Origin: Geodermatophilus sabuli
GTDB taxonomy: Bacteria > Actinomycetota > Actinomycetes > Mycobacteriales > Geodermatophilaceae
NCBI RefSeq assembly: GCF_010686765.1
Contig: NZ_JAAGWF010000003.1
Span: forward strand, 62,001 to 126,000
DNA length: 64,000 nucleotides
Reading direction: 5' to 3'
This document shows, one piece after another, positions 9,214-60,848 of the stretch. The notes under the pieces were generated by a model. That model had not been told where the DNA came from. It ran no database searches and saw nothing but the letters and a program-made list of their open reading frames with translations. Within the stretch, counting starts at the first letter, position 1, and each line of letters opens with the position of its first letter. The translations under genes were made by a program, and so were the position numbers.

Positions 9214-9918
9214 GTGGACGTCGTGGCGCGCTTCTGGACCCGGATCACCACCCCGGTCCCCGACCTGCCCCCTGCCGTCCTGCTGGCCACCCTGGCCGCC
9301 GCCGCGGTCGTCGTCCTCTCCCCCGCCCTGTGGCATCCGGCCCGCAACGTCGTGACGATCGCCCACGAGGGGGCCCACGGTCTGGCCGCGCTGGTCACCG
9401 GGCGACGGCTGGCCGGCATCCGGTTGCACTCGGACACCTCCGGGCTCACCGTCTCGGCCGGGCGGCCGACCGGGCCGGGCATGGTGCTCACCTGCGCCGC
9501 GGGGTACCTGGGCCCGGGGCTGTTCGGCCTGGGCGCGGCGGCGCTGTTGGCCGCCGGGCACGCGGTGGGGCTGCTCTGGGCGCTGCTCGGCCTGCTCGCG
9601 CTGCTGCTGGTCCAGATCCGCAACTGGTTCGGGCTGTGGTCGGTGCTGGCGACGGCCGCCGTCCTGGTCGCCGTGACCGGGTGGCTGCCACCGGAGGGCC
9701 AGGCCGCCTTCGCCGCGGCCGGCACCTGGTTCCTGCTGCTGGCCGCTCCGAAGGCGGTGGTCGAACTGCAGCGGGCGCGGCGCCGCCGGTCCGCCCCGGA
9801 CTCCGACGCCGATCAGCTGGCCAGGCTCACCCGGCTGCCGGCGCTGCTGTGGGTCGGCGTCTTCCTGCTCGTCGACCTCGGCGCCCTGCTGCTGGGCGCC
9901 TGGTGGCTGCTGGCTTGA
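9214..9918 (+). CDS. M50B-like membrane metalloprotease homologue
   Basis: The 234-residue protein has about six membrane segments and an HExxH zinc motif, IAHEGAHGLAAL (His at 49 and 53), in the first hydrophobic region, matching the M50B-like family of small actinobacterial membrane proteins. Site-2-type proteases cleave within membranes; activity has not been shown for this short branch. It has no obvious partner: neighbours are a divergent exporter and a convergent phosphorylase. A palindromic element begins right after its stop codon. Confidence 0.78.
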   Translation: MDVVARFWTRITTPVPDLPPAVLLATLAAAAVVVLSPALWHPARNVVTIAHEGAHGLAALVTGRRLAGIRLHSDTSGLTVSAGRPTGPGMVLTCAAGYLGPGLFGLGAAALLAAGHAVGLLWALLGLLALLLVQIRNWFGLWSVLATAAVLVAVTGWLPPEGQAAFAAAGTWFLLLAAPKAVVELQRARRRRSAPDSDADQLARLTRLPALLWVGVFLLVDLGALLLGAWWLLA

Positions 9919-22385: not shown

Positions 22386-22901
22386 TCACGAGCGAGGTGC
22401 GGGCTCGCCCGTGCGCGGACCGGTCAGGTACACCAGCCGGAACTTGCCGATCTGCACCTCGTCGCCGCCGGCCAGCGTGGCCACGTCGACCGGCTCCCGG
22501 TTGACGTAGGTGCCGTTGAGGCTGCCGACGTCGTGCACCGAGAAGCCGCCGCCCTCGCGGTGGAACTCCACGTGCCGGCGGCTGACCGTGACGTCGTCGA
22601 GGAAGATGTCGCTGTCGGGGTGGCGGCCCGCGGTGGTCACGTCCTGGTCGAGCAGGAAGCGGCTGCCGGCGTTGGGGCCGCGCTTCACCACGAGCAGCGC
22701 CGACCCGGCGGGCAGGGACTCGACGGCACCGGCGTGGGCGTCGGTCTCGGTCACCTCCGGGGTCTCGGCGGAGTCCTCGCCGCCCACCTTGGGGATGACG
22801 CTGGTGGACTCACCGATCCGCTCCTGCGACAGGGCCGAGCCGCACTGCGCGCAGAAGCGACTGCCCTCGGGGTTGTTGTGTCCACAACGAGTGCAGTGCA
22901 C
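22386..22901 (-). CDS. garA: FHA-domain protein GarA with N-terminal zinc ribbon
   Basis: The 171-residue protein opens with a zinc ribbon (Cys3, Cys6, Cys17, Cys20), followed by a Thr-rich acidic stretch (TPEVTETD, 48-54) and a C-terminal FHA domain with AGRHPDSD, SRRH (107-110) and NGTY (129-132), the phosphothreonine-binding residues. GarA/OdhI proteins are phosphorylated near the N-terminus by Ser/Thr kinases and control 2-oxoglutarate dehydrogenase and glutamate metabolism. Which Thr is the kinase site here is not certain, because the mycobacterial ETTS motif is replaced. GGAGGAG lies 6 bases before the GTG. Confidence 0.9.
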   Translation of the reverse strand: MHCTRCGHNNPEGSRFCAQCGSALSQERIGESTSVIPKVGGEDSAETPEVTETDAHAGAVESLPAGSALLVVKRGPNAGSRFLLDQDVTTAGRHPDSDIFLDDVTVSRRHVEFHREGGGFSVHDVGSLNGTYVNREPVDVATLAGGDEVQIGKFRLVYLTGPRTGEPAPRS

Positions 22902-52390: not shown

Positions 52391-53803
52391 TCAGCGGTGC
52401 CGCTTGCGGCCCGGCTCCCCCAGCCCGCCGACGAGGCGGGACGGGTCGAACTCGGTGAACCGCGCGCTGGTGCCCAGTGCCAGGGCGTCGGCGGCCGCGT
52501 TCAGCCGCTCCGGTTGCGCGACCCGACCCCAGCGGCCGGTGTCGAGCCGCTGCTCGAGAGCCTGCAGCGCCGCCACCTGCTCCGCCGCCTGGAACTCGCA
52601 GTGCCCCGTCCCCTGGACGTAGGCCTGGCGCAGCTGCCGCTCCTCCCCGGCCCGGCGCACCAGCTCGGCGTACCAGTCCTCGTGCTCGACGGGGACCAGT
52701 TCGTCGGCGACGGTGTGGATCGCCAGCTCGGGGACCTCCAGCTCCCCGGTGACCGTCGACGAGCGGGCCAGGTCGGCGACCGCGGCCGGGTCGGCCACGA
52801 CGTCCGCGTCCCGGGTGAGGGCGGCGAGGTCGGCCTCGAGGTCGAGTCCCGCCTCGCGGTAGAGCGCCGCCACCTGCTCGGCGTGCGGGCTGCTTTGGAG
52901 GAGTGTGCGGTAGTCCACGCCCACGTTGGAGGCGGTGTTGCCACCGGCGACCAGCTCGATCTGCTGCCGGCCGGTCACGTACCGCTCGAGGCCACCGCCC
53001 TCGATGAGGGCCTGGTACTGCTGCAGCTGCTCCGCAGCGTGGTCACCGGGCGGCGCGGGAGCGTCGCCGGAGAACCAGGTCGCCAGGTTCAGGTAGACCG
53101 ACGCGAGCGCGATCCGGGCCCGCCCCTCCGGCGTGGCCTGGGCCGCGGTGACCGACGCGATGAGCTGGTCGGCCGCCTGCTGCGCCTGCTCCGGGCTCTC
53201 GTACCGGACCAGCGGGACGTCGGGACCCAGCAGGTGCGACAGGGTGTACACGCCGTCGAGCTGGTAGGCGTTGAGGTTGAGCGCGCCCGCGACGATGCCG
53301 CAGGTGGTGAGGACGCCGCCGATCTCCCCCCGCGGGTCCTCGGCCTGCCGGGCACTGACGAGTCCGCCCATGGACCGGCCGAAGGCGATGGTCCGCTCCG
53401 GCTCGACGCCGAGCAGGTCCTCGAACGCCGCCAGGGCGGCGAACTGGTCGTCCACCGCCGTCTCGAGCGCCCAGAACGACGGCCCCGAGTAGGACGAGCC
53501 GACCAGGGCGTACCCCCGGTCGAGCAGCGCCTGCCGGGTCTCGTCGTCCGGCGCGTCCTGGGCGGTCAGCGGACCGAAGCCGTGCGCGTAGAGCACCACG
53601 GTCCCGTTCCACTCCGGCGGCACGTGCGCCACCCACGTGGCGCCGCTGGCCAGGTCGCCGCCGTACGGGCCTGGCGCCACCTCCGGCTGCAGCGTCGCGT
53701 CCGGCGGCGGCGTGGCGTCCGCGCCGGCGGCGGTCACCGACGCGCCACCGACCAGTGCCACGGCTCCCGCGACCGCTGTCAACCGTGTCGTCCACCTGCT
53801 CAT
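52391..53803 (-). CDS. Secreted alpha/beta hydrolase
   Basis: The 470-residue protein has a signal peptide (LTAVAGAVALVGGASVTAAGADA, cleavage near 26-30) and an alpha/beta hydrolase core: LYAHGFGP oxyanion region, nucleophile Ser144 in GRSMGG, a likely Asp367 in HTVADELVP and His401 in GTGHCEF. The substrate is probably an ester outside the cell. It is the distal gene of the run with the thioesterase, CoA ligase and GcvT-fold protein (128-bp gap), so it may release an aromatic acid from an ester; that link is inferred. Confidence 0.83.
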   Translation of the reverse strand: MSRWTTRLTAVAGAVALVGGASVTAAGADATPPPDATLQPEVAPGPYGGDLASGATWVAHVPPEWNGTVVLYAHGFGPLTAQDAPDDETRQALLDRGYALVGSSYSGPSFWALETAVDDQFAALAAFEDLLGVEPERTIAFGRSMGGLVSARQAEDPRGEIGGVLTTCGIVAGALNLNAYQLDGVYTLSHLLGPDVPLVRYESPEQAQQAADQLIASVTAAQATPEGRARIALASVYLNLATWFSGDAPAPPGDHAAEQLQQYQALIEGGGLERYVTGRQQIELVAGGNTASNVGVDYRTLLQSSPHAEQVAALYREAGLDLEADLAALTRDADVVADPAAVADLARSSTVTGELEVPELAIHTVADELVPVEHEDWYAELVRRAGEERQLRQAYVQGTGHCEFQAAEQVAALQALEQRLDTGRWGRVAQPERLNAAADALALGTSARFTEFDPSRLVGGLGEPGRKRHR

Positions 53804-53931
53804 CGACCACCTCGTCTCCGCCGGGAAACCCGGCATCGGGCTGCGTGTGATGCGGGCCACCCTCGCAGCCGTGGTGGACGAAGTACAGGCTTCCTGTCCT
53901 TTTTCCGCGCGCCGGCGCACGACGCGCCGCC

Positions 53932-54360
53932 TCAGGACGGCGGCACGCCGTCGGGAGCCGCTTGCAGCATGCCGGCGAGCTGGCCCCGGAACGCCTCGGG
54001 CAGGGGCAGTGGCCGCTCCCCGTCGCCGACGTAGACCACGGAGTGGCGCCCCTCGACGGCCGGCCGGCCGCCCGTGTGCACCGTCCAGGCATAGGCGATC
54101 GAGGACCTCCCGACCCTGACGACGCCGAGCGCGAGCTCGAACGCGTCGTCGAAGCGCAGTGCCGCGCGATAGGTGGCCTGGACGTCGACCCGCGGGAAGC
54201 CACCGTGGAACGAGTGGCCCAGGCTGCGCAGCAGGTCGTGCTCGGCGGCCTCGGCCCAGCGGAAGGCCGCCGTGAAGTGGATGCGGCCGCTGGCGTCGGT
54301 GTCGACCCACGCGACCCGGCCGCGGTAGAGGTGCTGCCCGCCCTCGGCGCTCCCGCTCAT
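53932..54360 (-). CDS. Acyl-CoA thioesterase of the 4HBT (hotdog) family
   Basis: The 142-residue protein has the hotdog pattern RVAWVDTDASGRIHFTAAFRWAEAAEHDLLRSLG, in which the early acidic residue and helix match 4-hydroxybenzoyl-CoA thioesterase-like enzymes, followed by VDVQATYRAALRFDDAFELALGVVRVG. It should hydrolyse aryl- or acyl-CoA. The ATG overlaps the stop codon of the CoA ligase gene by 4 bp. Having both ligase and thioesterase suggests a CoA-ester intermediate. Confidence 0.87.
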   Translation of the reverse strand: MSGSAEGGQHLYRGRVAWVDTDASGRIHFTAAFRWAEAAEHDLLRSLGHSFHGGFPRVDVQATYRAALRFDDAFELALGVVRVGRSSIAYAWTVHTGGRPAVEGRHSVVYVGDGERPLPLPEAFRGQLAGMLQAAPDGVPPS

Positions 54361-55970
54361 GCTCGGTCCTCGTGACCGGGCGCCGAGGCGTCGGGGCCGT
54401 CGAACCGTTGCCGCAACGCGATCTTGTCGTACTTCCCCACCGCCGTCTTCGGGATCGCCTCGACGAACTCCACGCGCTCCGGGAGCCACCAGCGGGCGAC
54501 CTTGGGAGCGATGAACTCCCGCAGCTCCTCGGGCGTGGCCGAGGCCCCGGGCTTGAAGGACACCACCGCCATCGGCCGTTCGGTCCACTTCTCGTCCGCG
54601 ACGGCGATGACCGCCGCCTCGGCCACCGCCGGGTGGTCCATCAGCGCGTTCTCCAGCTCGGGGGTGGAGATCCACTCACCACCGGACTTCACCAGGTCCT
54701 TGGCCCGGTCCTGGATGTGGATGTACCCGTGCGGTGTGATCGCGACGACGTCCCCGGTCCGGAACCAGCCGTCGTCGGTCCACTGCTGCCCGCTGGCCTG
54801 CGGGTCCCCGACGTACTCCCGGGCGACCCAGGGCCCGCGGACCTCGAGCTCGCCCATGCTCCGTCCGTCCCAGGGCACCAGGCCGGAGTCGCCCCGGGCC
54901 CGGATCTCGAGGAAGGGCATCGGCAGCCCCTGGGCGTGGCGGTGCCGCCGCTGCTCCTCCTCCGGGGCCTGCCGCAGCTCGTCGGTGAGGTTGGCGATGG
55001 CGCCCATGACCAGCTCCGTCATGCCCCAGGTGTGCACGAGGGGGACGCCGTGCCGCCGGCGCAGCCCCTCGATCATCGCGGGCGGTGCGGTGGCACCACC
55101 GCTGAGGACGGCGCGCAGCGAGCTGGTGTCGTACGCACCGGGCGCACCGTCGAGAGTCGTCAGCAGGCCCATCCAGACGGTGGGCACACCACCGGTGAGG
55201 GTCACCCGCTCCCCCGCGACGAGCTCGAGCAGGCTGGCCGGGTCGAGGAAGCGGCCGGGCAGCACCTGCTTGGCCCCGAGCAGCGCCGCGGTGTAGGGCC
55301 AGCCCCAGGCCAGCGCGTGGAACATCGGCACCACCGGCATGACCACGTCGTCGTCCCGGATCGCCAGCCACCCGCTGAGCGCACTGGACAGCGCGTGCAC
55401 CGCGATGGCCCGGTGGCTCACCTCGACCCCCTTGGGCCGCCCGGTGGTCCCGCTGGTGTAGGTCACCAGCGCGGTGGACCACTCGTCGAGCTCGCCCGGC
55501 TGCCACTGCGGGTCCCCGCCGGCGAGCAGCTCCTCGTAGGACAGCAGCCCCTCCGGCGCCTGCCCCACGACGACCACGTGCCGGAACGGCGTCCGGTCGC
55601 GGATCTCCGCGTAGAGGCCCAGGAACGACTCGTCGACGACGAGGACCCGGTCGCCGGCATCGGCGGCGATGTAGGCGACGTCGTCGGCGTGCAGCCGCGG
55701 GTTGAGCGGATGGGTGACCAGCCCGGCGATCGGGGCGGCGTAGTAGACCTCCCAGTGCTCGGCCTGCGTCCACAGCAGCGTGGCCACCCGAGCGCCGGGC
55801 TCGAGCCCGAGGCCCAGCAGCGCGGAGGCGAGCTGCCGCGACCGGCGACCCAGCTCGGCGTAGGTCGTGCGGTGCAGGGAGCGGTCCGGACGGCGGCTGA
55901 CCACCTCGCGGCCGGGGGCGAACTGCTCGGCGCGGCGGAGGATCGCGGCGATGTCCAGGGACTGGTGCAC
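54357..55970 (-). CDS. AMP-dependent acyl-CoA ligase
   Basis: The 537-residue ANL enzyme has the P-loop YTSGTTGRPKG (171-181), VPMFHALAWGWPY, HTWGMTEL (313-320), the adenylate-binding GWFRTGDVV and IQDRAKDLVKSGGEWIS, and the C-terminal lysine in PKTAVGKYDKIALRQ. The sequence resembles medium-chain or aromatic acyl-CoA ligases (AlkK-like). A GTG nine bases upstream overlaps the stop of the GcvT-fold gene and is an alternative start. In context it probably activates an aromatic or phenylpropanoid acid. Confidence 0.9.
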   Translation of the reverse strand: MHQSLDIAAILRRAEQFAPGREVVSRRPDRSLHRTTYAELGRRSRQLASALLGLGLEPGARVATLLWTQAEHWEVYYAAPIAGLVTHPLNPRLHADDVAYIAADAGDRVLVVDESFLGLYAEIRDRTPFRHVVVVGQAPEGLLSYEELLAGGDPQWQPGELDEWSTALVTYTSGTTGRPKGVEVSHRAIAVHALSSALSGWLAIRDDDVVMPVVPMFHALAWGWPYTAALLGAKQVLPGRFLDPASLLELVAGERVTLTGGVPTVWMGLLTTLDGAPGAYDTSSLRAVLSGGATAPPAMIEGLRRRHGVPLVHTWGMTELVMGAIANLTDELRQAPEEEQRRHRHAQGLPMPFLEIRARGDSGLVPWDGRSMGELEVRGPWVAREYVGDPQASGQQWTDDGWFRTGDVVAITPHGYIHIQDRAKDLVKSGGEWISTPELENALMDHPAVAEAAVIAVADEKWTERPMAVVSFKPGASATPEELREFIAPKVARWWLPERVEFVEAIPKTAVGKYDKIALRQRFDGPDASAPGHEDRA

Positions 55971-55975
55971 GGTCC

Positions 55976-57355
55976 TCACTCCCCCCGCGCGGCGGCGGCC
56001 GCGACCGGGTCGTCGCGCCGGTGGTCGGGCAGCAGCGGCTGCTCGGAGACGGTCGCCCGCAGTCGCCAGGTCGGTGAGCCCGGGAAGCCCCAGTCGACCG
56101 TGACCTCGGCGCCGGGCTGCAGCCCGGCGTCCAGGCGGGCGTGGCTGACCATCCGGCGCAGCGTCGGGCTGTGCGCGGCCGCCGACGCCCAGCCGGCCGC
56201 CTCGCCGTCCCGACGGACGCGGTGGAACTGCAGCCGGAACTGACCCCAGGCCTGGTCGGGCGCCGGCGGGGCCGGGGCATCGCGGAACTGCGCGGCGAAG
56301 AGCTCGCCGACGTCGTCGGCGTCCCACACCAGGGCGCGCCATCGCCGGGTCGGGCCGCCGGCGTCGGCCTCGGCGCGCACGGCGTCCCGCCCGACGAAGT
56401 CGTGGTCGAGGTCGACCGCCCGGCTCCAGCCGAGTTCGGCCGGCGTGACCAGGTGCTCGGTGAGGTCGTGGTCGAGTGCGGCGAGCTCGTCGTCGGTGGC
56501 CCACAGCCGGGCGAAGCGGGGCAGCTTGTCCGCCGGGAAGCGGTCGGGGAGGTAGTCGCGGATGACGGTGGGCACGTTGCTCTCGGTGTGGCCGATCATC
56601 TGGGCGCGGTAGCCCAGCTCCCGCAGTCCGACGTCCCGCCCGACGTCCCGGATGCGCCGCCACAGCTCGTGGGCGCGCCCGGTGTCGGTCCGCATGAGGA
56701 ACTCGTAGCCGATCTCGCCGGTGACCCCCTGACGCTGGACGATCACCTCGGTGTCGAACAGCGTGGTCCGGCGCCAGCGGGAGAAGCGCAGGTCGGCGAA
56801 CGACTCGCCGGTCACGGCCTCCAGCACCGGGAGCGACTGCGGCCCCTGCAGGGCGAAGCACGTCCAGTCGGGCGTCTGGTCGGCCAGGTGCACGTCCATG
56901 CCCAGTCTCTGCGCCTGGAGGGGCAGCCAGAACTGCGCGCCGGACTGGGTGAAGAGGAAGTCGTCGTCGGCGAGCTTGAGCGCGACCCCCTCGATGGCGA
57001 TGCGGCCGGCCGCGCTGAGCATCGGGGTGAACCGGGTGGCTCCGACCTGCTGGCTCAGCACGCTCTTGGCGGAGATCCGGTCCAGGAACGCCTCGGCGTG
57101 CGGTCCGGTGATCCGGACCTTGTTCAGCCAGCTCCAGTCGCCGAGCACGGCCGTCGTCCGCAGCGCGCGGGACTCCTCCCACCAGCGGGTGTACTCGTGG
57201 GCCATGAGGAAGCCGCCGTTGAGGTGCGCCCACAGCCGGCTGGTGTTGGACTCGTCCTGCGCCGGCGCCCCCGGACTGCCCAGGTAGGGCCGCTCCACGA
57301 AGGCGAGGTCGCGGTACTGGTTGGCGCGGAGGTACTGCTCGCGCAGATCGTCCAT
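55976..57355 (-). CDS. Long GcvT-fold protein, LigM/DesA-type folate-dependent O-demethylase candidate
   Basis: The 459-residue protein has the GcvT folate-binding fold (LGDWSWLNKVRITGPHAEAFLDRISAKSV, WTCFALQGPQSLPVLEAVTG, GVTGEIGYEFLMRTD, GWSRAVDLDHDFVGRDAV) but is about 90 residues longer than glycine-cleavage T protein. That length and the N-terminal YLRANQYR...WEESRALRTTAVLGDWSW match LigM/DesA, which move methyl groups from vanillate or syringate to tetrahydrofolate. Co-transcription with a CoA ligase and thioesterase and divergence from PaaX support aromatic catabolism. DMSP demethylase or a sarcosine-type enzyme are alternatives. Confidence 0.75.
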   Translation of the reverse strand: MDDLREQYLRANQYRDLAFVERPYLGSPGAPAQDESNTSRLWAHLNGGFLMAHEYTRWWEESRALRTTAVLGDWSWLNKVRITGPHAEAFLDRISAKSVLSQQVGATRFTPMLSAAGRIAIEGVALKLADDDFLFTQSGAQFWLPLQAQRLGMDVHLADQTPDWTCFALQGPQSLPVLEAVTGESFADLRFSRWRRTTLFDTEVIVQRQGVTGEIGYEFLMRTDTGRAHELWRRIRDVGRDVGLRELGYRAQMIGHTESNVPTVIRDYLPDRFPADKLPRFARLWATDDELAALDHDLTEHLVTPAELGWSRAVDLDHDFVGRDAVRAEADAGGPTRRWRALVWDADDVGELFAAQFRDAPAPPAPDQAWGQFRLQFHRVRRDGEAAGWASAAAHSPTLRRMVSHARLDAGLQPGAEVTVDWGFPGSPTWRLRATVSEQPLLPDHRRDDPVAAAAARGE

Positions 57356-57399
57356 GGCTCCTCGCTCGTCGCGTCGTCGCTGTCCGCACGGACCGACTC

Positions 57400-57429
57400 A
57401 AGCTAGACGCTCATCCGGACGAGCGTCAA
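57400..57429 (-). promoter_or_regulatory. Promoter and palindromic operator of the first GcvT-fold operon
   Basis: On the minus strand TTGACG (57424-57429) and TAGCTT (57400-57405) are 18 bp apart. A 22-bp palindrome with one mismatched pair (57406-57427; arms GACGCTC and GAGCGTC around a TCCGGA core) fills the spacer and part of the -35 box. The PaaX-type regulator encoded 50 bp away is the obvious candidate to bind it. Confidence 0.7.
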
Positions 57430-57466
57430 CGATGGTGTCCAGCGGTGAGCCGGCCCGCCAGGTGCC

Positions 57467-57472
57467 TACGAT
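57467..57472 (+). promoter_or_regulatory. -10 element TACGAT of the PaaX-type gene
   Basis: The hexamer ends 7 nt before the GTG at 57480, so this regulator's mRNA is probably leaderless. Confidence 0.5.
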
Positions 57473-57479
57473 CCCTGGC

Positions 57480-58391
57480 GTGAGCGAGGTGACGGCGATC
57501 CCCGACGCCACGTCCGGTGCCGCCGTCGGCACCCGGCCGCAGCACCTGCTCCTCACCTTGCTGGGCGACTTCTGGTACCACCGCAGCGAGTCGCTGCCGT
57601 CGACGGCGCTGGTCCGGCTCCTGGCCGAGTTCGGCGTCACCGAGCCGAACGCCCGGGCCGCGATCAGCCGCCTGGCCCGCAAGGACCTCCTGGTCGCCAC
57701 CCGCCAGGGCCGGCGGACGGCGTACGCCCTGAGCGAGACCGGCCACGCCACCCTGGTCGAGGGCACCCGCCGGATCTTCCGGTTCGGCAACGACCCCCAG
57801 CCGTGGGACGGCCGGTGGACGATGGTCGCCTTCTCCGTCCCCGAGGAGAACCGCCCGCTGCGGTCCACCCTGCGCACGCGCCTGCGCTGGCTGGGCTTCA
57901 CCGCGCTCTTCGACGGCGTCTGGACCGCCCCCGGCGATCACAGCGCCGAGGCCGGCGCCCTGCTCGCCGAGCTCTCGCTGACGACCGCGACCATCGTCGT
58001 GGGCACGGCCTGCGGACCGGCCGAGGGAGATCCGGCGCGCGCCTGGGACCTGCAGGGCCTCAGCGACCGCTACACGGCCTTCCTCGCGGACTTCGGCGAC
58101 ATCGCCGAGCGGGTCCACGCGGGTGAGGTCAGCGACACCGAGGCGCTGGTCCGGCGGACGACGCTGATCGACGTCTGGCGCACCTTCCCGGCGCTCGACC
58201 CCGAACTTCCGGTGGAACTGCTCCCCGCCGACTGGCCGGCACGCCGGGCCCGCGAGCTGTTCACCGACGTCTACGACGCCCTGGGCCCGCGGGCCACCCG
58301 CCGCTTCCGCGAGCTCGTCGCGGTCGACGACCCGGCTGCCGCACCACTCGCCCGGCACCACACCTCGACCGAGGCCCTGTCCGAGGCCTGA
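57480..58391 (+). CDS. PaaX-family transcriptional regulator
   Basis: The 303-residue protein matches PaaX in length and order: N-terminal winged helix (QHLLLTLLGDFWYHRSESLPSTALVRLLAEFGVTEPNARAAISRLARKDLLV), the central domain (WDGRWTMVAFSVPEENRPLRSTLRTRLRWLGFTALFDGVW) and the C-terminal domain (LIDVWRTFPALDPELPVELLPADWPARRARELF). PaaX proteins repress aromatic acid operons and respond to aryl-CoA esters, which fits the neighbouring CoA ligase. It lies between the two operons that carry GcvT-fold proteins. Confidence 0.93.
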   Translation: MSEVTAIPDATSGAAVGTRPQHLLLTLLGDFWYHRSESLPSTALVRLLAEFGVTEPNARAAISRLARKDLLVATRQGRRTAYALSETGHATLVEGTRRIFRFGNDPQPWDGRWTMVAFSVPEENRPLRSTLRTRLRWLGFTALFDGVWTAPGDHSAEAGALLAELSLTTATIVVGTACGPAEGDPARAWDLQGLSDRYTAFLADFGDIAERVHAGEVSDTEALVRRTTLIDVWRTFPALDPELPVELLPADWPARRARELFTDVYDALGPRATRRFRELVAVDDPAAAPLARHHTSTEALSEA

Positions 58392-58414: not shown

Positions 58415-59698
58415 TCAGACGGCGCGCAGGTCGCTGCGGCGGCGGTCGGTCTTGTACGGGGCGGGGGCGACCGTGGCCCGGATCGCCTTCTGCGGACCCT
58501 GCGGCGTCCCCCAGTGGACGGTCACCCGGGTCCCCGGCTCGCTGTGCGCGACGTCGATCGTGCACAGCGAGAGCATCTCGCGGAAGTGGTGGCTGTAGCC
58601 CCGGGAGGTGGCCACGCCGACCAGGTCGTCCCCGACGGTGACCCGGTCCGCCCACATGAACCCCCGGGGATCGCGGGGCATCTCCATGAACGGGTACACC
58701 TGCCCGGGCCGGAACAGCGACATGAAGACGTCGCCGACGTCCTCGCTGTCCCAGACCAGCGTGCGGATCACCCGTCGCGGGTCCGCCTTCTCCGCCTCCA
58801 GCGCGGGGCGGCCCAGGAAGTCGTGGTCGAAGACGATGTTCCGCGCCCAACCGAGCTCGACCGGGCTCCGGTAGTACTCGCCGACCTCGCGGCCGTCGTA
58901 GCTGCCGGCGATGTACGCCGGCTGCGCGAACGCCGGCATCGAGGCGGTGAACTCGGCCAGGTACCCGGCCATGTCCGCGCCGAAGATGGCCGGGATGTAG
59001 TCGGTGGCGATGGTCGGGAAGCACGCCTCGAGGTGGTTGATGGGGGCTGCTCGCCAGCCCAGCCGGCGGAGGTCGAACCGCTGCCCGGCCGCCACGATCA
59101 GGTCGTAGACCTCCTGGCCGTGCTCGATCGGCCCCTGCAGCTCGAAGCCGACCTCGCCGGCCATGCCCTGCCGCAGGGCCCACACCTGGTGCCCGGCGAT
59201 CGTCACGGGCGCGACCCGCATGAACCCGGTGTCCCGCAACTGGGGCGAGCCCGTCACCTCCTCGAGGAGTGCGATCGAGCTCGGGCCCGACACCTGGAAG
59301 ATGAACCAGTCGTCCCGCTCCACCCGGGCGTCGTAGCCCCCGCGGGCGAGTTGATGGCTCATCCAGAACCCACCCCGGCCGTGCAGCATGAACTCCTCCG
59401 CACCGAAGCGGGTGAGGATCCCCTCGTGGATCACCTTGCCGTCCCCGTCGGTGTGGATCACGTGCTTGGACTGGCCGAGCTGGAACCGGGCGAAGCTGTT
59501 CACCGAGAAGTCCGAGAACAGCCGGAGGACGTCGGGGCCGGTGAAGCGGTGCTGCCAGAGGAAGGACCAGTTGCCGATGTAGCAGGCGTCCTTCCACGAC
59601 AGGCTCTCGTCCAGCCAGTCGGTGTACTCCGGCTCGCCGAACCGCGTCCATGCGTAGGTCGGCGGCGGGGTCCGCATGCTGTCCACCGTGTAGGTCAT
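58415..59698 (-). CDS. Second long GcvT-fold protein, O-demethylase candidate
   Basis: The 427-residue protein has GcvT-fold segments (CYIGNWSFLWQHRFTGPDVLRLFSDFSVNSF, WFIFQVSGPSSIALLEEVTG, GMAGEVGFELQGP, GWARNIVFDHDFLGRPAL) and shares the overall plan of the protein at 55976 without being a close copy (for example DWSW/NWSF and ELGW...DHDF). It follows the substrate-binding lipoprotein gene by 40 bp with its own GGGGAGG ribosome site. Two different proteins suggest two methoxy positions or two substrates; that is inference. Confidence 0.73.
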   Translation of the reverse strand: MTYTVDSMRTPPPTYAWTRFGEPEYTDWLDESLSWKDACYIGNWSFLWQHRFTGPDVLRLFSDFSVNSFARFQLGQSKHVIHTDGDGKVIHEGILTRFGAEEFMLHGRGGFWMSHQLARGGYDARVERDDWFIFQVSGPSSIALLEEVTGSPQLRDTGFMRVAPVTIAGHQVWALRQGMAGEVGFELQGPIEHGQEVYDLIVAAGQRFDLRRLGWRAAPINHLEACFPTIATDYIPAIFGADMAGYLAEFTASMPAFAQPAYIAGSYDGREVGEYYRSPVELGWARNIVFDHDFLGRPALEAEKADPRRVIRTLVWDSEDVGDVFMSLFRPGQVYPFMEMPRDPRGFMWADRVTVGDDLVGVATSRGYSHHFREMLSLCTIDVAHSEPGTRVTVHWGTPQGPQKAIRATVAPAPYKTDRRRSDLRAV

Positions 59699-59738
59699 CG
59701 CCGGTTCCTCCCCTTGCGTCGCGGCCCTCGCTGCGCGG

Positions 59739-60722
59739 TCACCGGGCACTCTCGGCGACCAGGTCCTCGACGGCGACCTCGGACTCGATGAGTTCGTCCT
59801 CCAGGGCCAGGTCGATGAGCCGCTGCGTCGAGTCCACGTTCACCTCCGGCTCCCAGCCGGGCAGCGTGACCTCCGCGACGACCTCCGGCGGGATCTGCGT
59901 GTAGGTCGTGATGACGTCCCGGGCCTCCTCGGGGTTCTCCTGCGCGTACTCGGCCGATCGGGCCACCGCGGTGGCGAACCGCTCCACGAGGTCGGGGTCC
60001 TCCTGCAGCCTCTGCTCGGAGGTGAAGTAGGCCGAGGCCATCAGGTCCGGCGAGACGTCGATCCAGTTCCACGCCACCGGCACCGCTCCCTGCGCGAGCG
60101 CCCCGGTGAGGAAGGGCTCGACCACCCAGATCGCGTCGACCTGCCCGGTCTGGAGCGCGGCGGCCATGTCCGGCAGCGGCAGCTCGACGAACTGGACGGC
60201 GTCGGGGTCACCACCGGCGGCCCGGACCGACTCGCGGATCGACGTGTCGCCGATGTTGCGCAGGGTGTTCACCGCGACGCGGCGGCCCGCCAGGCCGGCG
60301 GCGTCGGTGATGTCGCTGCCCGGCCCCACGACGACGGCGCCGTAGTCGGCCCCCACCTCGCCGGTGCTCGAGCCGCCGGGCGCGATGATCTTGACCGGGA
60401 GCCCCTGGCTGCGCGCGAGGATCAGTGACGTCGGGTTGCTGAAGCCGAAGTCGAGTTCACCGCCGAGCACGCTCGGGATGATCGCGGCTCCGCCCTGGGC
60501 GGTGGTGAAGCTGAGCTCGATCCCCTCGTCGGCGAAGAAGCCCTCCTCCACGCCCAGGTAGATCGGTGCCAGGTCCACCAGCGGGAGGACGCCCAGGGAC
60601 ACCTGGGTCACCGAGGTCCCGCTGCCCGTGGCCTCCGGCTCGCCGGACGCCTCACCACCTCCACACCCGGCCAGCGCCAGGCAGGCGGCGGCGACCGCGG
60701 GCAGAACTGTGGACCTGCGCAT
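59739..60722 (-). CDS. ABC transporter substrate-binding lipoprotein (NMT1/SsuA-like)
   Basis: The 327-residue protein has a lipoprotein signal (VLPAVAAACLALAGCGGG, lipobox LAGC) and an NMT1/THI5-like binding fold (QVSLGVLPLVDLAPIYLGVEEGFFADEGIELSFTTAQGGAAIIPSVLGGELDFGFSN, then ALQTGQVDAIWVVEPF). Relatives bind taurine, nitrate, pyrimidines or aromatic acids. No permease or ATPase gene lies nearby, so it is an orphan within this window. The operon it heads includes a GcvT-fold protein, which suggests a methoxylated ligand. GAGGAG lies five bases before the ATG. Confidence 0.87.
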   Translation of the reverse strand: MRRSTVLPAVAAACLALAGCGGGEASGEPEATGSGTSVTQVSLGVLPLVDLAPIYLGVEEGFFADEGIELSFTTAQGGAAIIPSVLGGELDFGFSNPTSLILARSQGLPVKIIAPGGSSTGEVGADYGAVVVGPGSDITDAAGLAGRRVAVNTLRNIGDTSIRESVRAAGGDPDAVQFVELPLPDMAAALQTGQVDAIWVVEPFLTGALAQGAVPVAWNWIDVSPDLMASAYFTSEQRLQEDPDLVERFATAVARSAEYAQENPEEARDVITTYTQIPPEVVAEVTLPGWEPEVNVDSTQRLIDLALEDELIESEVAVEDLVAESAR

Positions 60723-60773: not shown

Positions 60774-60803
60774 ACGTTAGACACCGGCGCGGTCGACCGT
60801 CAA
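60774..60803 (-). promoter_or_regulatory. Promoter of the binding-protein / second GcvT-fold operon
   Basis: On the minus strand TTGACG (60798-60803) and TAACGT (60774-60779) are 18 bp apart, the same -35 and spacing as at 57400-57429. The perfect palindrome CGGTCGACCG (60790-60799) overlaps the -35 side. Confidence 0.6.
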
Positions 60804-60848
60804 CAGCGACGTCGACAGTGGGCCCAGGCCGCGGTTGGCACCCCCGTC

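Follow-up and report, generated by a model that had tools for sequence, protein, structure and literature searches.

Positions 57406 to 57439 of the window, by which we mean the whole 64,000-nucleotide stretch of DNA analysed here, are likely to be the operator of a repressor of a PaaX subfamily that is encoded divergently next to the site and would block recognition of the -35 box at two operons. The site is a 34-bp composite of a core inverted repeat and two outer half-sites, which has a promoter-like geometry, is conserved at orthologous promoters, recurs once more in the window and is associated with the genes of a PaaX subfamily. The genes around the two copies, with the basis of each assignment in brackets, are as follows:

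57480 to 58391, plus strand: regulator of the PaaX family, 303 aa, start placed by inspection, may be leaderless (domain search)
55976 to 57355, minus strand: GcvT1, GcvT-fold methyltransferase, LigM/DesA-like but under cut-offs (profile scores)
54357 to 55880, minus strand: AMP-binding acyl-CoA ligase, 5' end not fixed (domain search)
53932 to 54507, minus strand: 4HBT-type thioesterase, 5' end not fixed (domain match)
52391 to 53836, minus strand: probable secreted alpha/beta hydrolase, 5' end not fixed (by eye; sub-threshold Pfam match only)
59739 to 60722, minus strand: NMT1/SsuA-like ABC substrate-binding protein (SBP), ATG at 60722 by inspection (domain search)
58415 to 59749, minus strand: GcvT2, DesA/LigM-like GcvT-fold protein, likely start at the internal ATG 59698 (profile scores)

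On the minus strand these genes fall into two groups, one with the SBP gene followed by gcvT2, and a separate one with gcvT1 and the genes of the ligase, the thioesterase and the probable secreted hydrolase. The regulator contains the domains PaaX, PaaX_M and PaaX_C, all three above the Pfam gathering scores, and falls short of the phenylacetate PaaX equivalog TIGR02277 (169.6 bits versus a cut-off of 264.55). Among curated demethylase models, GcvT1 and GcvT2 score best against LigM or DesA, but both stay far under the respective NCBIfam equivalog cut-offs of 580/800 bits (112.1/105.5 for GcvT1 and 220.4/249 for GcvT2), so that O-demethylation is a presumed activity. The hexamer TACGAT (57467-57472) ends 7 bases ahead of the paaX GTG, no ribosome-binding site is visible by eye, and paaX may be leaderless.

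The sequence elements are listed below; G037 and G033 denote the two other genomes, among 112 of the family, that encode close GcvT1 relatives (77% and 69%, respectively).

57424 to 57429, minus strand: predicted -35 box TTGACG of the GcvT1 promoter (identical bases in G037 and G033)
57400 to 57405, minus strand: predicted, weak -10 box TAGCTT of the GcvT1 promoter, 18-bp spacer (identical bases in G037 and G033)
57406 to 57427, no strand: 22-bp palindrome, equal to left outer half-site plus core (sequence inspection)
57406 to 57439, no strand: putative operator O1, GACR-N8-GACGNNCGTC-N8-YGTC, 34 bp, 0 mismatches (sole 0-mismatch copy in its own genome)
57418 to 57427, no strand: core inverted repeat GACGAGCGTC over the -35 box (equal to what we take to be the MeqR2 core, GACGNNCGTC)
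57406 to 57409, plus strand: left outer half-site GACG, immediately next to the -10 box (also in G037 and G033)
57436 to 57439, plus strand: right outer half-site TGTC (offset-8 register in 9 of 65 PaaX upstream regions)
60780 to 60813, no strand: putative operator O2, composite with 1 mismatch, upstream of the SBP-GcvT2 operon (pattern search)
60798 to 60803, minus strand: predicted -35 box TTGACG of the SBP-GcvT2 promoter (sequence)
60774 to 60779, minus strand: predicted, weak -10 box TAACGT of the SBP-GcvT2 promoter, 18-bp spacer (sequence)

The first-pass annotation had described a 22-bp near-perfect palindrome within the spacer and part of the -35 box of TTGACG-N18-TAGCTT, with paaX diverging about 50 bp away, and all of this is accurate. 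The sequence at 57406-57427, GACGCTCATCCGGACGAGCGTC, is an ungapped palindrome with 11-base arms and 10 of 11 pairs matched, and the GcvT1 promoter runs on the minus strand from TTGACG (57429-57424) through the 18-base spacer (57423-57406) to TAGCTT (57405-57400), so that the palindrome covers the whole spacer and reaches 4 bases into the -35 box; the likely GTG start of paaX, at 57480, lies 52 bp from the palindrome edge. A consensus promoter scan returned no promoter at all, and it missed that of GcvT1 because TAGCTT shares only three of six bases with TATAAT where the scanner demands four; both predicted -10 boxes, of GcvT1 and of SBP-GcvT2, have this 3/6 match. The exact 22-mer occurs a single time in the 4.79-Mb genome. 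Nine 22-bp palindromes with no more than one mismatched pair were counted in the window, versus a mean of 4.01 and a maximum of 9 in 100 shuffles, and such a palindrome fell inside the 124-bp intergenic gap in 0.3% of 5000 shuffles. Palindromes of this length are not rare in the GC-rich window, and the palindrome alone is weak evidence.

The conserved unit is the 34-bp composite, which extends 12 bp beyond the palindrome towards paaX and has its centre on the -35 box and not in the spacer. It was present in the same place at all three gcvT1 promoters found, the comparison thus comprising three loci only, with no mismatch in the window and in G037 and one in G033, and the promoter-aligned consensus of the three reads GACG-N8-GACGNNCGTC-N8-T(G/A)TC. 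The more distant GcvT1 relative of G064 (35% only) is located at its GcvT2 orthologue, and a GcvT1 search of 394 sampled genomes of the class at 1e-80 retrieved the own genome only. When the conservation of the palindrome was checked at the orthologous gcvT1 promoters, the outcome was mixed: G037 keeps the 7-base arms (GACGCTC-N8-GAGCGTC) around a changed centre, but in G033, where paaX and gcvT1 are co-directional and the intervening gap contains TTGACGACCGTCCTCGACTGCGTCTAGCTT, the palindrome is gone and the GACG/CGTC ends alone persist. The putative operator on the GcvT1 promoter and its link to the neighbouring PaaX, proposed in the first-pass annotation, are supported by comparison, but the extent of 22 bp was wrong. 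A scan of the 112 family genomes with GACGCTC-N8-GAGCGTC (at most one mismatch) gave matches in 106, with seven in the own genome versus one for the reversed control, and is uninformative because the counts for most genomes are of the same order as those of the reversed control.

The second copy, O2, which the first-pass annotation did not describe, is positioned on TTGACG-N18-TAACGT, 58 bp ahead of the likely SBP start, and shares the geometry TTGACG-N18-TAnnnT with gcvT1; its left part, GACA-N8-GTCGACCGTC, is not a 22-bp palindrome. With at most one mismatch, the composite was found at two places in the window, versus a mean of 0.05 and a maximum of 1 in 60 shuffled windows, the pattern having been refined on some of the sequences that also enter the counts. 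The own genome contains one perfect place (57406) and five with one mismatch, O2 among them. The three of the other four that were inspected (all but C114) fall within frames free of stops over more than 500 codons, which is only a hint because in this GC-rich DNA the stop-free frames around O1 and O2 themselves reach 367 and 345 codons. Five other genomes have three to five such places each, and 5 of these 20 fall at the PaaX loci studied (2/4 in G605, 1/3 in G736, 1/3 in G037, 1/5 in G033 and 0/5 in G046); the sole 0-mismatch composite of G033 is located elsewhere, in a stop-free frame (C191:10542). The core followed by TGTC matches exactly at one further position of the own genome (C15:245129), and with one mismatch allowed its numbers in this genome are near background (33 forward and 24 reverse versus 14 and 30 for the control). 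In six other genomes, no composite with up to one mismatch was detected (0/6) at the loci of the GcvT2 orthologues, which extend 1.5 kb past the gene with the operon starts unmapped; five of these genomes lack a PaaX match at 1e-40, and G064 has one at 37% on another contig.

The core GACGNNCGTC is what we take to be the box of MeqR2, the PaaX-type repressor of plasmid pAL1 of Arthrobacter sp. Rue61a, with TGACGNNCGTCA as the presumed full 12-mer. The MeqR2 operator occupies -35 to -24, and the repressor is released by an aromatic CoA thioester. In the window the core is present as GACGAGCGTC at 57418-57427, where the box GGACGAGCGTCA fits one of the two flanking bases of MeqR2 (T and A) and would fit in position, about -24 to -35, if transcription is assumed to start at ~57393. 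Positions 1-42000 of pAL1 contain the 12-mer with at most one mismatch at seven places, four of which are intergenic boxes (exact at 9727, 10133 and 30318, one mismatch at 22608) preceding an operon of the xanthine dehydrogenase family, presumably quinaldine oxidase, the meqE operon, a PaaX gene, and an operon of ligase and thioesterase; the three remaining boxes, each with one mismatch, lie elsewhere, away from these promoters. A one-mismatch MeqR2-like box is located on pAL1 between a superoxide dismutase gene and a PaaX gene (L131:19755). Both systems combine the same core with a PaaX-family protein near ligase and thioesterase genes, and TTGACG overlaps the box identically at pAL1 10133. 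They differ in that the window box starts with G and not T, that the pAL1 boxes are without outer half-sites and belong to another pathway, and that the window PaaX is only 31% identical to the pAL1 protein that we take to be MeqR2 from its gene position. According to the genome paper, two PaaX-related regulators of pAL1 help to control quinaldine degradation (PMC3534580).

The association with PaaX was assessed in 65 PaaX upstream regions (28 + 22 + 15), a subset of the homologues listed. A core with at most one mismatch, followed by TGTC at offset 8, occurs in nine of them (own, G037, G046, G514d, G530b, G590, G605a, G605b and G736), versus at most one for each other offset from 0 to 20; since 56 of the 65 regions are without it, the combination characterizes at most a subfamily. 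Across whole loci (L102-L129), TGTC follows the core at offset 8 ten times, at offset 16 nine times and at offsets 7 and 19 seven times each, and since offset 8 hardly exceeds the others there, the register is a property of the upstream regions. Within 444 kb from 34 PaaX loci, all five exact matches of core plus TGTC fall in the 220-bp PaaX upstream regions, which make up 2% of the sequence (P ~3e-9, with PaaX starts set by hand to within ~50 bp); exact matches were relied on because the set with up to one mismatch (13/25) counts some symmetric sites twice. The 12-mer TGACGNNCGTCA, which is independent of these sequences, has 6 of its 35 matches with at most one mismatch in the upstream regions of the 34 loci (0.69 expected, P 6e-5). 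For the 12-mer, shuffles of single regions gave only 0.02 (own) and 0.01 (G037), and upstream of paaX in G033 and G046 the 12-mer had no match within two mismatches. PaaX upstream regions show no enrichment of the core by itself when up to one mismatch is allowed (19/765, P 0.18), and the signal is therefore carried by the spaced composite.

The site-bearing PaaX proteins cluster on the PaaX tree, with 4 changes versus a shuffled mean of 10.6 and none of 500 shuffles as low. The 12 labels used on the tree take in G033 (site on the gcvT1 promoter and not upstream of paaX), G595a (site just beyond the paaX 3' end) and G568 (two mismatches), none of which is among the nine regions of the register count. 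A PaaX scan of contigs revealed two loci, one of them close, and a plasmid scan 10 records with a top identity of 38%. One-mismatch copies of core plus TGTC lie between paaX and divergent lipoprotein genes that by eye are ABC substrate-binding-like (L121:6035 and L127:6496). The sequence GACGATCGCCGGTCAATATGT is conserved ~5 kb from paaX in three genomes (L112:862, L113:12336 and L119:1861), and the genes after it resemble, by eye, those of an ABC transporter operon. In G046, G007 and G605 (loci L097, L101 and L118), related PaaX genes have homologues of the probable secreted hydrolase nearby, and in G007 a one-mismatch core plus TGTC is located just upstream of a hydrolase homologue (L101:8728).

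Other known systems offer partial parallels. The Escherichia coli PaaX belongs to the same family, has a long two-part operator, TGATTC(N27)GAATCA, and is described in a review as a repressor competing with polymerase at two promoters (PMC9493321); the window PaaX is only 28% identical to it and misses the cut-off of TIGR02277, and neither half, TGATTC or GAATCA, was seen by eye in the gap 57356-57479. Phenylacetyl-CoA is given as the inducer of PaaX in two papers (PMC4424350; PMC9493321, there as a numbered compound). The LigM and DesA O-demethylases of Sphingobium are those nearest to the GcvT-fold enzymes of the window, but the latter are far under the cut-offs, and the regulator in Sphingobium is the MarR-type DesR (PMC6888825) and not of the PaaX type. 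A literature search, for which subscription papers were mostly out of reach, yielded no description of the present operator.

A simple mechanism can be read from the geometry. With a transcription start at ~57393, about 7 bases past the -10 box, the site would extend from -13 to -46, and its core, which overlies the -35 box, would cover -25 to -34. Of the outer half-sites, each separated from the core by 8 bases, one abuts the -10 box and the other is located upstream of the -35 box. With such a span, there would hardly be room for PaaX and polymerase on the promoter at the same time; the position of the site on the GcvT1 promoter supports the earlier suggestion that binding and polymerase access would be mutually exclusive. 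Binding of PaaX, possibly by two dimers, would occlude the -35 box and the spacer and deny polymerase access to the putative GcvT1-ligase-thioesterase operon, and O2 would exert the same blocking at the putative SBP-GcvT2 operon. The four half-sites could accommodate the two dimers either as core plus flanks or as two overlapping 22-bp inverted repeats. A CoA thioester produced by the operon's ligase would probably release PaaX; the ligase and thioesterase genes of the putative operon would fit such an effector. The response to aryl-CoA put forward in the first-pass annotation is inferred from the PaaX family.

A less extended site, with the palindrome at 57406-57427 as the complete operator and one dimer on the spacer, is unlikely, despite its near-perfect symmetry and the 7-base arms kept in G037. 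The inner bases differ in G037, the palindrome is lost in G033 while the promoter and the composite persist, O2 lacks it over 22 bp, and related PaaX upstream regions retain the core together with the right half-site, which lies outside the palindrome. The palindrome as the whole operator was rejected on the G033 loss, the O2 sequence and the conserved right half-site. It is equally improbable that the site chiefly autoregulates paaX or that PaaX acts as an activator here: O2 is not beside paaX, and the composite between the co-directional paaX and gcvT1 of G033 is positioned on the gcvT1 promoter. For a leaderless paaX, however, the core and the right half-site would occupy -41 to -62, directly ahead of the weak paaX promoter with TACGAT at 57467-57472, and in G605b the outer TGTC falls, by eye, within the likely paaX -35 box.

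The 8-base register and the enrichment of core plus TGTC in PaaX upstream regions, the clustering on the PaaX tree and the lack of composites at the six GcvT2 orthologue loci make it very unlikely that the site belongs to another regulator or that its conservation reflects promoter constraint together with chance in GC-rich DNA. In favour of this explanation, both TTGACG and TAGCTT belong to the promoter, the words GACG and CGTC are frequent here, the core with up to one mismatch is not enriched by itself, and background composites are present in every genome searched.

Overall, the 34-bp element present at both promoters is a likely operator through which a protein of the PaaX type probably silences genes for taking up and demethylating methoxylated compounds. 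A wider proposal, plausible if tentative, is that an actinobacterial PaaX subfamily uses a 34-bp operator with four half-sites, in which a pair of 22-bp inverted repeats, shifted by 12 bp relative to each other and sharing 10 bp, may seat two dimers around the -35 box and coordinate aromatic uptake with GcvT-type O-demethylation. The example illustrates that a striking palindrome can be a mere slice of the real site, and a single protein and two short DNA fragments would suffice to test the regulon. With the composite, operators of an actinobacterial PaaX subfamily would become searchable, and a regulator of the PaaX type would be connected with a transporter gene and with demethylase-like genes of the GcvT type.
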